From Phycisphaerae bacterium (lineage in GTDB: Bacteria > Planctomycetota > Phycisphaerae > Sedimentisphaerales > SM23-30): a stretch of DNA of 33,979 nucleotides. The position numbers were made by a program, and so were the translations under genes. Below are positions 4,096 to 9,701 of the stretch, piece by piece (the stretch's first letter is position 1; each line of letters begins with the position of its first letter). The notes beneath the pieces were generated by a model, which was given only the letters and a program-made list of their open reading frames with translations, was not told the DNA's origin and did no database searches. The stretch covers positions 1 through 33,979 of the forward strand of contig JAEIOG010000054.1 of NCBI GenBank assembly GCA_016342495.1. Reading direction: 5' to 3'.

Positions 4096-4929
4096 TTATG
4101 CATCATTTTCCTTTTCCAGTTTCTTAATACGATTGTCTTCAACAAGCAAACACATTTGCTGGATAGCAGTATTATTCAATAGCCTCAATCTCTCATTTTG
4201 CGGTAAATCCTGCTGAATAAAATGAGCATTCAATATTTCAAGATTAGCCAGACATACCAACTGCGAAACATTGGCATAATCCCTGATATTTCCGGACTTA
4301 TCCGGATTCTCTTCCTGCCATTGCTTTGCTGTTTTACCAAACAAAGCCATATTCAATAAGTCAGCCTCTGAAGCATAAACTAAATTAATCTGCGGGCCAG
4401 TAAGTTCCGGTGGAATCAATTTTTCCTTTATCGCATCAGTATGAATACTATAATTAATCTTGGTCAAATTGCGACGAATATCCCAGCCGAGTTGCTTTTG
4501 TTCTTCATCCTTGAGACGCTGAAATTCTTTTATCAGATAAAGCTTAAATTCAACTGATACCCAAGATGCAAATTCAAAAGCAATATCTTTATGGGCATAC
4601 GTACCACCATATCTCCCTGTTTTTGAACTTAAACCTATCGCCCCGGTTGTGGAAATCCATTTTTTGGGAGTAAGCGTAAAACTATTCAAACCAGCTTGTT
4701 TTTTAATCCCGTTGAATTCGACGGGATTAAAATCTGGATTGTAAAGTTGCTCCCATATACCAAGAAGCTCCAAAGTATTACGGTTCCGCAGCCAGTTCCG
4801 AATCAGATCGTCAGGGTGCTCTGGATTCTTGGATTTTGCAATATCGGTAAGGCAAATAAAATCATCCTGGCCTATAGCTTTTACTCTTACATCAGTACTC
4901 AAAACTTCTATTTTTTTATTCTTTTTCAT
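4096..4929 (-). CDS. KilA-N domain protein
   Basis: The N-terminal roughly 120 residues match the KilA-N DNA-binding domain seen in phage and large DNA-virus proteins and in scattered bacterial genes. Diagnostic segments are DDFICLTDIAKSKNPEHPDD, IRNWLRNRNTLELLGIWE, WISTTGAIGLSSKTGRYGG and the region with FEFASWVSVEFKLYLIKEF. The C-terminal half is helical, and the end (LLVEDNRIKKLEKEND) could form a short coiled coil. I chose ATG 4929; a TTG 24 bases upstream is the alternative, and neither has a well-spaced ribosome binding site. It sits between argS and rsfS without other phage genes, which suggests an acquired cargo gene. A regulatory or anti-phage role is possible but not shown. Confidence 0.85.
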   Translation of the reverse strand: MKKNKKIEVLSTDVRVKAIGQDDFICLTDIAKSKNPEHPDDLIRNWLRNRNTLELLGIWEQLYNPDFNPVEFNGIKKQAGLNSFTLTPKKWISTTGAIGLSSKTGRYGGTYAHKDIAFEFASWVSVEFKLYLIKEFQRLKDEEQKQLGWDIRRNLTKINYSIHTDAIKEKLIPPELTGPQINLVYASEADLLNMALFGKTAKQWQEENPDKSGNIRDYANVSQLVCLANLEILNAHFIQQDLPQNERLRLLNNTAIQQMCLLVEDNRIKKLEKENDA

Positions 4930-4964
4930 CCTAACATACCAACACAGCCCCAAGCCATTCTATA

Positions 4965-5546: not shown

Positions 5547-7454
5547 TTATTCTTTAACTTCAAAGTCGGCGTCGATGATATCTTCATCATCTTTCTTAGG
5601 TTCAGCATCAGGCTGTGGCTGCTGGGCATCCGGGGCAGCTCCGCCCTGAGCCTGTTGAGCCTGTTCATACATGATCTTGCCAATTTCCTGGCTGGCTTCC
5701 ATCACATTTTCGATAGCCTTTTTGATAGCTTCGCCATCTTCGCCTTTGGCAATTTCTTTGAGATTGTTCAAAGATGATTCGACTTTACTTCGCTCTTCGG
5801 CTGGCAGTTTATCACCATGTTCTTTCATAGTTTTTTCAGTTTGATAAACCACCTGGTCTGCCTGGTTCTTTAAGTCGATAACTTCACGACGTTTTTTATC
5901 TTCTTCGGCGTGAGCTTCTGCATCCTGAGTCATTCTTTCGATATCTTTTTCATCTAAGCCCGATGAACCTTTGATTTCGATATGCTGTTCTTTGCCGGTA
6001 CCTTTATCTTTAGCTCTTACACTTAAAATACCATTGGCATCCAGATCAAATGATACTTCAATTTGAGGTATGCCACGTGGCGCTGGTGGGATATCAGTCA
6101 GTTGGAAACGGCCCAGTGTTCTGTTGTCTTTGGCAAATTCACGTTCGCCCTGTAAAATATGAATATCAACCGAAGGCTGGCTATCCGATGCGGTACTGAA
6201 TGTTTCAGTCTTGGAGGTTGGAATAGTAGTATTTCGCTCAATGAGCTTAGTCATAACGCCACCCATGGTTTCAATGCCAAGAGAAAGCGGAGTGACATCC
6301 AGCAACAGAATATCTTTGACATCGCCAGCTAAGACACCACCTTGAACAGCTGCACCAAGAGCGACAACTTCATCAGGGTTAATGCTCTTATTGGGCTCTC
6401 TGTTGAACAATTCTTTTACCAACTGCTGAACTGCAGGGATACGAGTCGAGCCACCGACTAAAACCACTTCGGCAATTTCAGAAGTCTTCAATTTTGAATC
6501 GGCGATTGCTTTTTCGCACGGCAAACGCAAACGCCGTAAAACATCGGAGATCAATGATTCAAACTTGCTACGAGTAATTGAAACCTGTAAATGTTTTGGA
6601 CCACTTGAATCAGCAGTGATAAATGGCAAATTAATCATCGATTCAACCGATGTACTTAATTCACATTTTGCTTTTTCACACGCTTCTTTCAAACGCTGCA
6701 AAGCCATCGCGTCACCGCGAAGATCGATACCTTCTTTTGTCTTAAATTCATCAGCAACATAATTGATCATGATTTCATCGACATCATCACCACCGAGGTG
6801 GGTGTCACCATTAGTGCTTAAAACTTCAAACACATTATCGGCAATATCCAGAATAGAAATATCGAAAGTACCACCACCAAAATCAAAGACAGCTATCTTT
6901 TCATTGGCTTTCTTTTCCAGACCATACGCTAAAGCTGCGGCGGTTGGCTCATTAACGATACGTTCGACTTTCAAGCCAGCAATCGCACCGGCGTCTTTGG
7001 TTGCCTGTCGCTGAGCATCATTAAAATAAGCAGGAACAGTAATAACTGCACGGTCAACTGTTTCGCCCAAATAATCTTCAGCGACTTTTTTCAGATCCTG
7101 TAGGATCATCGCCGAAATTTCTGGTGGTGTATATTCTTTGTCTTTTACTTTGACCCTGACCAGCTCATCAGCTCCGCCTGTAATCGTATACGGAACGATT
7201 TTTTCTTCATCGGAAACTTCGCTGTGACGACGACCCATAAAACGTTTTACTGAATAAATAGTGTTATGTGGATTTGTTACTTGTTGATGACGAGCTAGCT
7301 GACCGACCAGCCTTTCGCCCTTATCGGTAAAACCTACCACCGAGGATGTTATTCTTGAACCCTGAGCGTTAATTAATACTTTAGGGGTTGCACCTTCTAA
7401 AACTGCCACGACCGAATTGGTAGTACCAAGGTCAATTCCTATAATCTTAGACAT
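5547..7454 (-). CDS. dnaK: Chaperone protein DnaK (Hsp70)
   Basis: This is an ATP-dependent chaperone that binds exposed hydrophobic peptides and normally works with DnaJ and GrpE, neither of which is in the window. The ATPase domain begins with [10 protein letters not shown] and shows the phosphate-binding motifs [31 protein letters not shown] and [14 protein letters not shown]. The substrate-binding domain includes [14 protein letters not shown] and the conserved block around [15 protein letters not shown]. The C-terminal tail is Gln/Ala-rich and ends in [14 protein letters not shown], the bacterial DnaK signature. At 635 residues it is a normal length. A strong ribosome binding site (AGGAG) precedes the ATG. 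It appears to be a single-gene unit with a sigma-54-type promoter upstream and a strong terminator downstream. Confidence 0.98.
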
Positions 7455-7512
7455 AACTCTATACTCCTATATATTATTGAGAAAAAATTTATTTATATAC
7501 GCTTTTATATAG

Positions 7513-7528
7513 AGCAAAACCCGTGCCA
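7513..7528 (-). promoter_or_regulatory. Sigma-54 (-24/-12) promoter of dnaK
   Basis: The minus strand reads TGGCACGGGTTTTGCT, matching every fixed position of the sigma-54 consensus TGGCACG-N4-TTGCW with exact GG-to-GC spacing. Transcription would start near 7502, giving a leader of about 48 nt. No CIRCE inverted repeat was found. An enhancer-binding activator site has not been identified. Confidence 0.7.
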
Positions 7529-7703
7529 TAAAATCTATTAAAACCATAAGTAATGTAAAAACAAACACTTATGAATTAAAATTATATCTATATCAGTGTC
7601 ACATATGCCATCTAGGCAGGCTCACAACCTCCAACTGCCAAAATGAACATCTTCACGTGAGTGAGATTTTTTAGTGGCAGGGTAAAAATATAAGAATAGC
7701 ACA

Positions 7704-7740
7704 CGGATTTTGACGGATCTGGCGGATTTTCGCGGATTTG
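7704..7740. repeat. Degenerate tandem CGGATTT repeat
   Basis: Four CGGAT cores occur at 9-10 base intervals, three of them extended to CGGATTT, with the last as CGCGGATTT. A related piece, ATCCGCG (complement CGCGGAT), occurs at 20132-20138. Such short CGGATT arrays are dispersed intergenic repeats in many environmental genomes; that generalisation is from memory. Confidence 0.5.
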
Positions 7741-8018
7741 ATTGGGCAATAGCCAACGATTGTTTTAATGGATTTGTGGATTTTTTAGCTGGCAAGGCCT
7801 GTTTTGATGCAATTGGTTTTTAATTGTTTGTTTTGAAATTGTCAATTTGTGATTGATTATCACTGATCAAACCAGATTTTTTTTATGGCTATTGTTGGTT
7901 ACAAGCCCGGAAGACCAATTTTAAGCACGAGTCATTTGCTAAGTTGATATTGGATATGGCTTTAGGTTTGCCACCAAATAAACTCGCTCACCATCTTCAC
8001 CAATAATTTATTTCCAAA

Positions 8019-8047
8019 TTTACATTCATGCGACGCTTTAGTAATAT
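8019..8047 (+). promoter_or_regulatory. Candidate promoter of the sulfatase cluster
   Basis: TTTACA (8019-8024) and TAATAT (8042-8047) have a 17-base spacer. Transcription would start near 8054, about 34 nt before the first sulfatase ATG. Confidence 0.4.
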
Positions 8048-8087
8048 AGGATGAATTAAACCATTCTCAATTATTAAAGGAATCGAT

Positions 8088-9701
8088 ATGAATCGTCGCA
8101 AATTTCTCAAAGCATCTGCGTTCACAGCCTTAGCCCCCCTTGTTAGTTCCTGCAATAGTCCTTTATCTAAATTGACCAAAACCCAAAAACCCAATATAAT
8201 TCTAATAATGGCCGACGATATGGGCTATTCCGATATAGGTTGCTTTGGCAGCGAAATAAATACCCCAAATCTTGACAATCTTGCTAATAATGGCTTACGC
8301 TATACCAATTTTTATAATGCCGCCCGTTGCTGCCCTACCCGTGCTTCACTACTAACGGGACTCTACCCACATCAAACCGGACTGGGCTGGATGACCGCTG
8401 CTGATGGTGGCCGACCGGGCTATCGTGGCCAGATTAATAATAAATGCGTCACCATCGCTGAAGCGTTAAAGTCTTACAAATACAATACTTATATGTCCGG
8501 GAAATGGCATGTCGCCTTAGATAAGCACCTTGATGGCTCCAATAAAGAAAACTGGCCTTGCCAGCGAGGGTTTGAAAAATTCTTTGGCACCATTTGTGGT
8601 GGCGGCAACTATTTTGCCCCACAACACCTCAAACGCAATAATGAACCAATTGAAGAATTCCCCGATGATTTTTATTATACCGATGCAATCAGCGACAATG
8701 CCTCCCAATTCATCAAAGACCACAATACCGACAATCCATTTTTTATGTATGTCGCTTATACGTCACCCCACTGGCCACTGCATGCTAAAAAGCAGGATAT
8801 TGCAAAATATGCAGGCAAATATGTACATGGCTGGGACAAACTTCGCCAGTCACGCTATGAAAAAATGATTGAAATGGGCATCATCGACAAATCATGGGCA
8901 CTCAGTGACCGTGACAAAGGAATCAACGAATGGGAAAAACTTGCCCCAGAAAAACAGAAAGACATGGCCCAACGTATGGCTATTTATGCAGCCCAAATCG
9001 ATTCAATGGATCAGGGCATTGGCCAAATCATCAATACTCTCAAAGATAAAAATCAGCTGGATAATACCATCATTTTCTTTCTGGCCGACAATGGCGGCTG
9101 CGCTGAATATATAAGCTGGGGAAAAACAGATTTAGATTCTATGGGCACAGAAGAATCGTTTGAAAGCTACCGCAAACCCTGGGCCAACGCTTCCAACACT
9201 CCATTTAAGCTTTATAAACATTACACCCATGAGGGCGGCATCTCAACTCCGCTTATCGTTCATTGGCCCAATGGCATAAAACATAAAAACCAGTTGCGCC
9301 GTCAACCATCCCACATCATTGACATTATGGCGACCTGCATCGATGTAAGCGGCACAAAATATCCAACCAGATATAATGGCAATGATATAATTCCATTTGA
9401 AGGAAAATCCCTGAAATCAACTTTTGATAATACACCATTTCCTTCGCGTCCAATTTTCTGGGAACACGAATCCAACCGGGCAATACAACTGGATAATTAC
9501 AAATTGGTAGCCCGCGATAAAGACACCCCATGGCAGCTATACAACTTAGCTAAAGATCGAACCGAAACAAATAACCTCTCCAGGGAAATGCCTGAAAAAG
9601 TTGAGCAATTAAACAAACTCTGGCAGGCATGGGCCAAACGCTGTGATGTCCTGCCCCTAAGCAACAAAGGCTGGGATGCTCGAATCAAAGAGTCAAAATA
9701 A
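8088..9701 (+). CDS. Sulfatase 1, Tat-exported lipoprotein
   Basis: A type I formylglycine sulfatase of the alkaline phosphatase superfamily that hydrolyses sulfate esters, probably on a polysaccharide. The N-terminus MNRRKFLK is a twin-arginine signal, and VSSC with Cys22 is a lipobox, so it should be anchored in a membrane facing the periplasm or outside. Metal-binding ADDMGYSDIG contains Asp43 and Asp44. The maturation motif is CCPTR with Cys81 as the predicted formylglycine, followed by ASLLTG. GKWH lies near residue 138 and a late DNGG near 337. The length (537) is normal for arylsulfatase-type members. The ribosome binding site is AAAGGA. It is first of four tandem sulfatase genes, 18 bp from the next. 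The substrate is not assignable. Confidence 0.94.
   Translation: MNRRKFLKASAFTALAPLVSSCNSPLSKLTKTQKPNIILIMADDMGYSDIGCFGSEINTPNLDNLANNGLRYTNFYNAARCCPTRASLLTGLYPHQTGLGWMTAADGGRPGYRGQINNKCVTIAEALKSYKYNTYMSGKWHVALDKHLDGSNKENWPCQRGFEKFFGTICGGGNYFAPQHLKRNNEPIEEFPDDFYYTDAISDNASQFIKDHNTDNPFFMYVAYTSPHWPLHAKKQDIAKYAGKYVHGWDKLRQSRYEKMIEMGIIDKSWALSDRDKGINEWEKLAPEKQKDMAQRMAIYAAQIDSMDQGIGQIINTLKDKNQLDNTIIFFLADNGGCAEYISWGKTDLDSMGTEESFESYRKPWANASNTPFKLYKHYTHEGGISTPLIVHWPNGIKHKNQLRRQPSHIIDIMATCIDVSGTKYPTRYNGNDIIPFEGKSLKSTFDNTPFPSRPIFWEHESNRAIQLDNYKLVARDKDTPWQLYNLAKDRTETNNLSREMPEKVEQLNKLWQAWAKRCDVLPLSNKGWDARIKESK

Follow-up and report, generated by a model that had tools for sequence, protein, structure and literature searches.

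A functional RpoN (sigma-54) promoter very probably drives dnaK in a Phycisphaerae bacterium (Planctomycetota; Sedimentisphaerales; SM23-30). The gene would belong to a chaperone set that shares the operator CTGYC-N5-GRCAK and is read by a single enhancer-binding protein (EBP) of the type we label L166, an arrangement replacing HrcA/CIRCE in the class. Gene and promoter lie within positions 1 to 33,979 of contig JAEIOG010000054.1 (assembly GCA_016342495.1), a stretch that we refer to as the window. Heat-shock control as taught is exerted by sigma-32 or by HrcA/CIRCE. Promoter, operator, dyad, conservation, phasing, regulon content, HrcA absence and activator co-occurrence were computed directly. 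The dnaK motif is, as we read these data, the visible part of a larger heat-shock and protein-folding regulon under predicted sigma-54 control.

Results

The -24/-12 element upstream of dnaK, TGGCACGGGTTTTGCT, matches the strict sigma-54 pattern with zero mismatches on the coding strand of the gene, and its ends are 59 and 74 bases away from the A of the ATG start codon (7454; Table 1). The GG and GC dinucleotides of TGGCAYN5TTGC are present at their fixed spacing. From the usual sigma-54 spacing, transcription would start at ~7502, giving a leader of ~48 nt. Strand, distance and exactness of the motif all agree with the original prediction, which had been made from this DNA alone and had proposed sigma-54 control of dnaK. 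The gene product is a genuine DnaK, scoring above the cut-off of both NCBIfam TIGR02350 and PRK00290, and its closest named relatives are found in Sedimentisphaerales and Phycisphaerae of the Planctomycetota. The strict pattern occurs once in the window, against 0.01 expected from shuffles. Pattern searches of the whole genome (5.42 Mb, 221 contigs) located 51 sites for the looser TGGCAY-N5-TTGCW and 3 for a reversed-pattern control. RpoN is encoded in the same genome (PF04552, E = 7e-59), with core-binding and DNA-binding domains found; the excess of sites and the RpoN gene therefore indicate a genuine sigma-54 promoter set. The sole other strict consensus in the genome (L002, G000:C30:7802-7817) lacks the chaperone operator and precedes a gene for a 265-aa HAD-type-phosphatase-like protein.

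We compared family members that have complete DNA upstream of dnaK. An exact TGGCAY-N5-TTGCW lies 47–71 bp before the dnaK start in L005, L006, L008, L009, L010, L013 and L014, and ~380–400 bp upstream in L007 and L012, a distance that would fit an insertion between promoter and gene. The more distant Phycisphaerae L034, L035 and L036 have the promoter before dnaK with at most one mismatch, and L037 has it in degraded form. Farther upstream, the window contains the inverted repeat CTGCCTAGATGGCAT (CTGCC-N5-GGCAT), ~76 bp from the -24 element; CTGCC-N5-GRCAT is found 76–80 bp upstream of the dnaK promoter in seven relatives of the family. A TGGCAG half-site is kept 15–16 bp beyond this repeat within the family, to which it is restricted; a second operator conserved across the class was looked for and not found. 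The original prediction had proposed checking the motif in related genomes, its lack in close relatives counting as a refutation, and looking for an activator site within 7530–7800. No such refutation emerged, as conservation extends through the family to farther Phycisphaerae, and the conserved repeat at 7605–7619 is a candidate for that site.

The putative operator also marks other genes. We took as operator-bearing those sigma-54 sites that have CTGYC-N5-GRCAK no more than 260 bp away, one mismatch being tolerated. Among the 51 sites of this genome, the intergenic ones of this kind precede dnaK, a GroEL gene (L136), clpB (L142/L194), hsp20 (L177) and a receiver-groES-groEL operon (L183/L364). 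A blind scan for the signature CTGCC-N5-GGCA, 65–95 bp gap, TGGCA-N6-TTGC across 298 Phycisphaerae genomes returned 105 places in 90 genomes, compared with 7 for a reversed control. Ninety of these places were fetched, and in 82 the next gene encodes DnaK (50), GroEL (12), ClpB (11) or Hsp20 (9). The remaining eight comprise three HtpX proteases, one further Hsp20, a 167-aa protein whose likeness to the receiver-like groESL leader is confined to place and size, and unrelated genes. Three matches before non-chaperone genes (L338, L350 and L290) are either chance or unusual regulon members. A phylum-wide scan extended the signature to further Planctomycetota families, where it again precedes DnaK, GroEL and ClpB. 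Across Planctomycetota, Hsp70, GroEL, ClpB and other chaperone genes appear to be switched on via sigma-54 and one dedicated activator.

Two further loci of this genome relate to these genes. The groES-groEL operon (L364:5595-6423 and 6515-8140, G000:C186) is headed, under the shared sigma-54 operator, by a 164-aa receiver-domain protein. This protein, in which the phosphorylation site looks degenerate, is a candidate for feedback control of the activator. A second DnaK gene (L017/L031, G000:C31:22434-23934; 65% identity) has no operator and is interrupted by a TAA stop codon or a frameshift; it is possibly a pseudogene or an assembly error.

HrcA was found in none of 61 class genomes, this one included, by a search that detected it in 7 control genomes. 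The CIRCE element, TTAGCACTC-N9-GAGTGCTAA, has no match in the window with up to three mismatches allowed, in agreement with the original prediction, which had seen no CIRCE element. With neither the site in the window nor the gene in the 61 genomes, we reject HrcA/CIRCE control of dnaK. The promoter might serve a non-heat signal such as starvation, attachment or redox, with dnaK being heat-induced from a different promoter or by an RpoH-like factor; the kinase beside the candidate activator, which has HisKA and HATPase_c but no further domain recognisable as a sensor, would suit such a role. However, the genes under the operator, clpB, hsp20 and htpX among them, make up the classic heat-shock set, and HrcA is absent. 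In the planctomycete Rhodopirellula baltica, moreover, heat induces clpB, groEL, dnaK and hsp20 together, along with dnaJ and grpE (PMC2754498), which fits a joint chaperone regulon. We therefore consider a non-heat role unlikely. The link to nitrogen or envelope stress raised in the original prediction is likewise unsupported, because the operator marks heat-shock and protein-folding genes (dnaK, groESL, groEL, clpB, hsp20 and htpX).

Six complete EBPs are encoded in this genome, among which the L166-type protein is the likely activator of the chaperone operator. It combines a receiver domain (REC; PF00072), a sigma-54 AAA+ domain (PF00158) and a Fis-type helix-turn-helix (HTH) domain (HTH_8, PF02954), with the GAFTGA loop and the receiver Asp and Lys present. 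Searching PF00158 in 17 signature-positive Phycisphaerae genomes identified an L166 ortholog in all 17. Genomes G148, G208 and G113 contain exactly one EBP each, the L166 ortholog (46–50% identity, against 36–39% to L167). The orthologs form a single clade (SH-aLRT 98), and their HTH ends in the nearly invariant NREQAAxLLGIGERTLYRKIKEY. Compared with NCBIfam equivalogs, the protein reached no cut-off among the 25 best listed, the best being AtoC at 437 of 714 bits. Within the order, a histidine kinase gene lies directly upstream of the activator gene; in family f24, the activator adjoins murB/murC and has no adjacent kinase.

Promoter and operator could be real and yet be used by another EBP, for instance the two-component regulator L167 or the GAF-type L164, orthologs of which are also common in the family. 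However, the L166 ortholog is the sole EBP in G148, G208 and G113, which therefore hold neither L164 nor L167, and we judge such use decidedly improbable. Because L166-only genomes still carry the signature, we set aside L164 and L167 as activators, together with the flagellar EBP L163, the PAS-type L165 and the RtcR-like L168. In a separate locus (L187/L163, G000:C194), a flgB-like gene preceded by a sigma-54 site neighbours L163, an NtrC-type activator with a probable role in flagellar regulation.

The interval between operator and promoter holds a dyad, whose 7-bp arms in the window, CATAAGT...ACTTATG, span 7545–7573. Across 82 promoters, TAAS-N17-STTA occurs in this interval in 21, against ~0.3 in shuffles, and no other spacer in the range 8–31 exceeds 2 promoters; counting equivalents, about 50 promoters have such a dyad. 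With one mismatch allowed, its distances to the -24 element cluster at 3–4, 14–19 and 23–29 bp. The dyad is phased near one helical turn both to the promoter (R = 0.70) and to the operator (R = 0.67; n = 40), the p-values being indicative only because related genomes are not independent. Direct phasing of operator and promoter, with all Planctomycetota pooled, is not significant (R = 0.13); phasing is seen only via the dyad. The dyad may have an architectural or co-regulatory role, exerted through a bound protein.

A parallel arrangement is found in Bacteroidota, for which we used dnaK genes among database matches (loci L040–L112). TGGYAY-N5-TTG lies 15–110 bp before the dnaK ATG in 60 of 63 Bacteroidota; the shuffled expectation is 0.14, and 0 of 12 dnaK genes from other phyla have it. 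TGYC-N5-GNCA, with a spacer of exactly five, precedes 26 of the 60 promoters at distances near 22, 32, 42, 53, 63, 74, 86 and 105 bp (10.5-bp period, R = 0.80). In each of four Bacteroidota genomes examined, there is an EBP that lacks a receiver and has GISERTLYRK(I/L)K at its end. These proteins fall in a separate clade from the planctomycete activator; orthology, and with it common descent of the regulator, is therefore not supported, and a common DNA-binding code is the weaker claim.

Table 1 Features of the dnaK promoter region, the candidate activator locus and one other gene of the window
Feature	Position	Strand or location	Basis or note
Sigma-54 -24/-12 element TGGCACGGGTTTTGCT	7513..7528	minus	Exact match; conservation before dnaK in relatives
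dnaK (Hsp70), 635 aa, predicted controlled gene	5547..7454	minus	Pfam PF00012, E = 6e-257; NCBIfam DnaK equivalogs above cut-off
Ribosome-binding-site-like TAGGAG	7464..7469	minus	Sequence
Middle dyad TAAG-N17-CTTA	7547..7571	minus	Exact; 18 bp upstream of -24 element
Enhancer (putative activator-binding) inverted repeat CTGCCTAGATGGCAT	7605..7619	minus	0 mismatches to CTGCC-N5-GGCAK
Extra half-site TGGCAG	7635..7640	minus	15 bp upstream of enhancer repeat; read from sequence
Candidate activator L166, REC-AAA+-Fis-HTH EBP	L352:5608-6963 (G000:C155)	outside window	Domains and co-occurrence
Histidine kinase (HisKA-HATPase_c) beside activator	L352:4627-5490	adjoining gene	Pfam
KilA-N domain protein (phage-typical domain)	4099-4953	minus	Between rsfS and argS

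Discussion

In the mechanism that we propose, dnaK, the receiver-groES-groEL operon, the second groEL, clpB and hsp20 of this genome would stand under one operator. Dimers or larger oligomers of the L166-type activator, probably in phosphorylated form, would bind it in response to heat or unfolded protein. DNA looping would then bring the activator to the RNA polymerase-sigma-54 closed complex, which its ATP hydrolysis would open. The intervening DNA is probably bent or brought into line by a protein bound to the middle dyad. Sigma-54 and its activator would thereby replace HrcA/CIRCE as the dedicated heat-shock control of the class.

Several observations weigh against this model. The strict motif is by itself weak evidence, because its two exact matches in the genome are near the ~1.3 expected from plain base counts. 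Weak sigma-70-like matches near the dnaK promoter number 7, against 3.1 expected, and dnaK may have a second promoter. About 30% of class genomes match the signature, a strict pattern that allows zero mismatches and one spacing range. The evidence for a sole activator comes from draft genomes that are 95–97% complete, and a profile of the activator HTH has matches in 288 of the 298 genomes of the class, so presence or absence of the activator gives little contrast. The first two points would suit a chance sigma-54-like string without function, with dnaK transcribed by sigma-70 or another sigma factor, but we reject this reading as having next to no probability, since motif and position are conserved before dnaK across family and class, the operator also precedes four other chaperone transcription units of this genome, and the blind-scan matches lie almost solely at chaperone genes. 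The same conservation and common operator support the sigma-54 control of dnaK first put forward in the original prediction.

The whole class, and apparently the phylum, thus seems to run its chaperones by sigma-54 and one dedicated EBP. Such a switch, driven by ATP, would be all-or-none and leak little, and it makes a concrete prediction of one operator, one activator and one kinase. It opens a way into the stress control of bacteria in which genetics is hard, and may connect to the same logic in the genetically tractable Bacteroidota. We give even chances to the idea that Planctomycetota and Bacteroidota share a sigma-54 heat-shock switch, comprising the operator code CTGYC-N5-GNCA and EBPs with a nearly identical recognition helix (GIGERTLYRKIKEY / GISERTLYRKIKQY), with a dyad-bound protein as a third layer in Planctomycetota. 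If true, this would be a third general bacterial heat-shock route beside sigma-32 and HrcA.

A computational study in PLoS One (2025) predicted that in Planctomycetota and Bacteroidota sigma-54 promoters serve DnaK, GroEL, GrpE, GroES, DnaJ and IbpA (PMC12316311), and it cites a Blattabacterium genome paper for sigma-54-dependent grpE/groES. Its text contains neither 'UAS' nor 'upstream activat', and its passages on the chaperone cluster name no activator; nor does it cover the phasing, middle element or HrcA loss described here. Our literature search on sigma-54 heat-shock control in Bacteroidota or Phycisphaerae returned nothing relevant beyond this study. Sigma-54 chaperone promoters had thus already been predicted; the operator, activator, phased element and HrcA absence are, to our knowledge, new.

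The closest mechanistic precedent would be the HsfA/HsfB two-component system of Myxococcus xanthus. PMC9548883 cites Ueki and Inouye (2002) for its activation of lonD, a heat-shock gene, and PMC7910581 counts HsfA among the EBPs. Likened by description, both systems would pair a histidine kinase with an enhancer-binding response regulator at heat-shock genes, whereas the known target of HsfA/HsfB is a protease gene, and operator and phylum differ. Like NtrC, AtoC and ZraR, the L166-type protein has REC, sigma-54 AAA+ and Fis-type HTH domains; unlike theirs, its predicted regulon consists of chaperones. The target genes are the same as those of HrcA/CIRCE and sigma-32 control, but the proposed mode is positive control from an enhancer, with no repression or sigma swapping.
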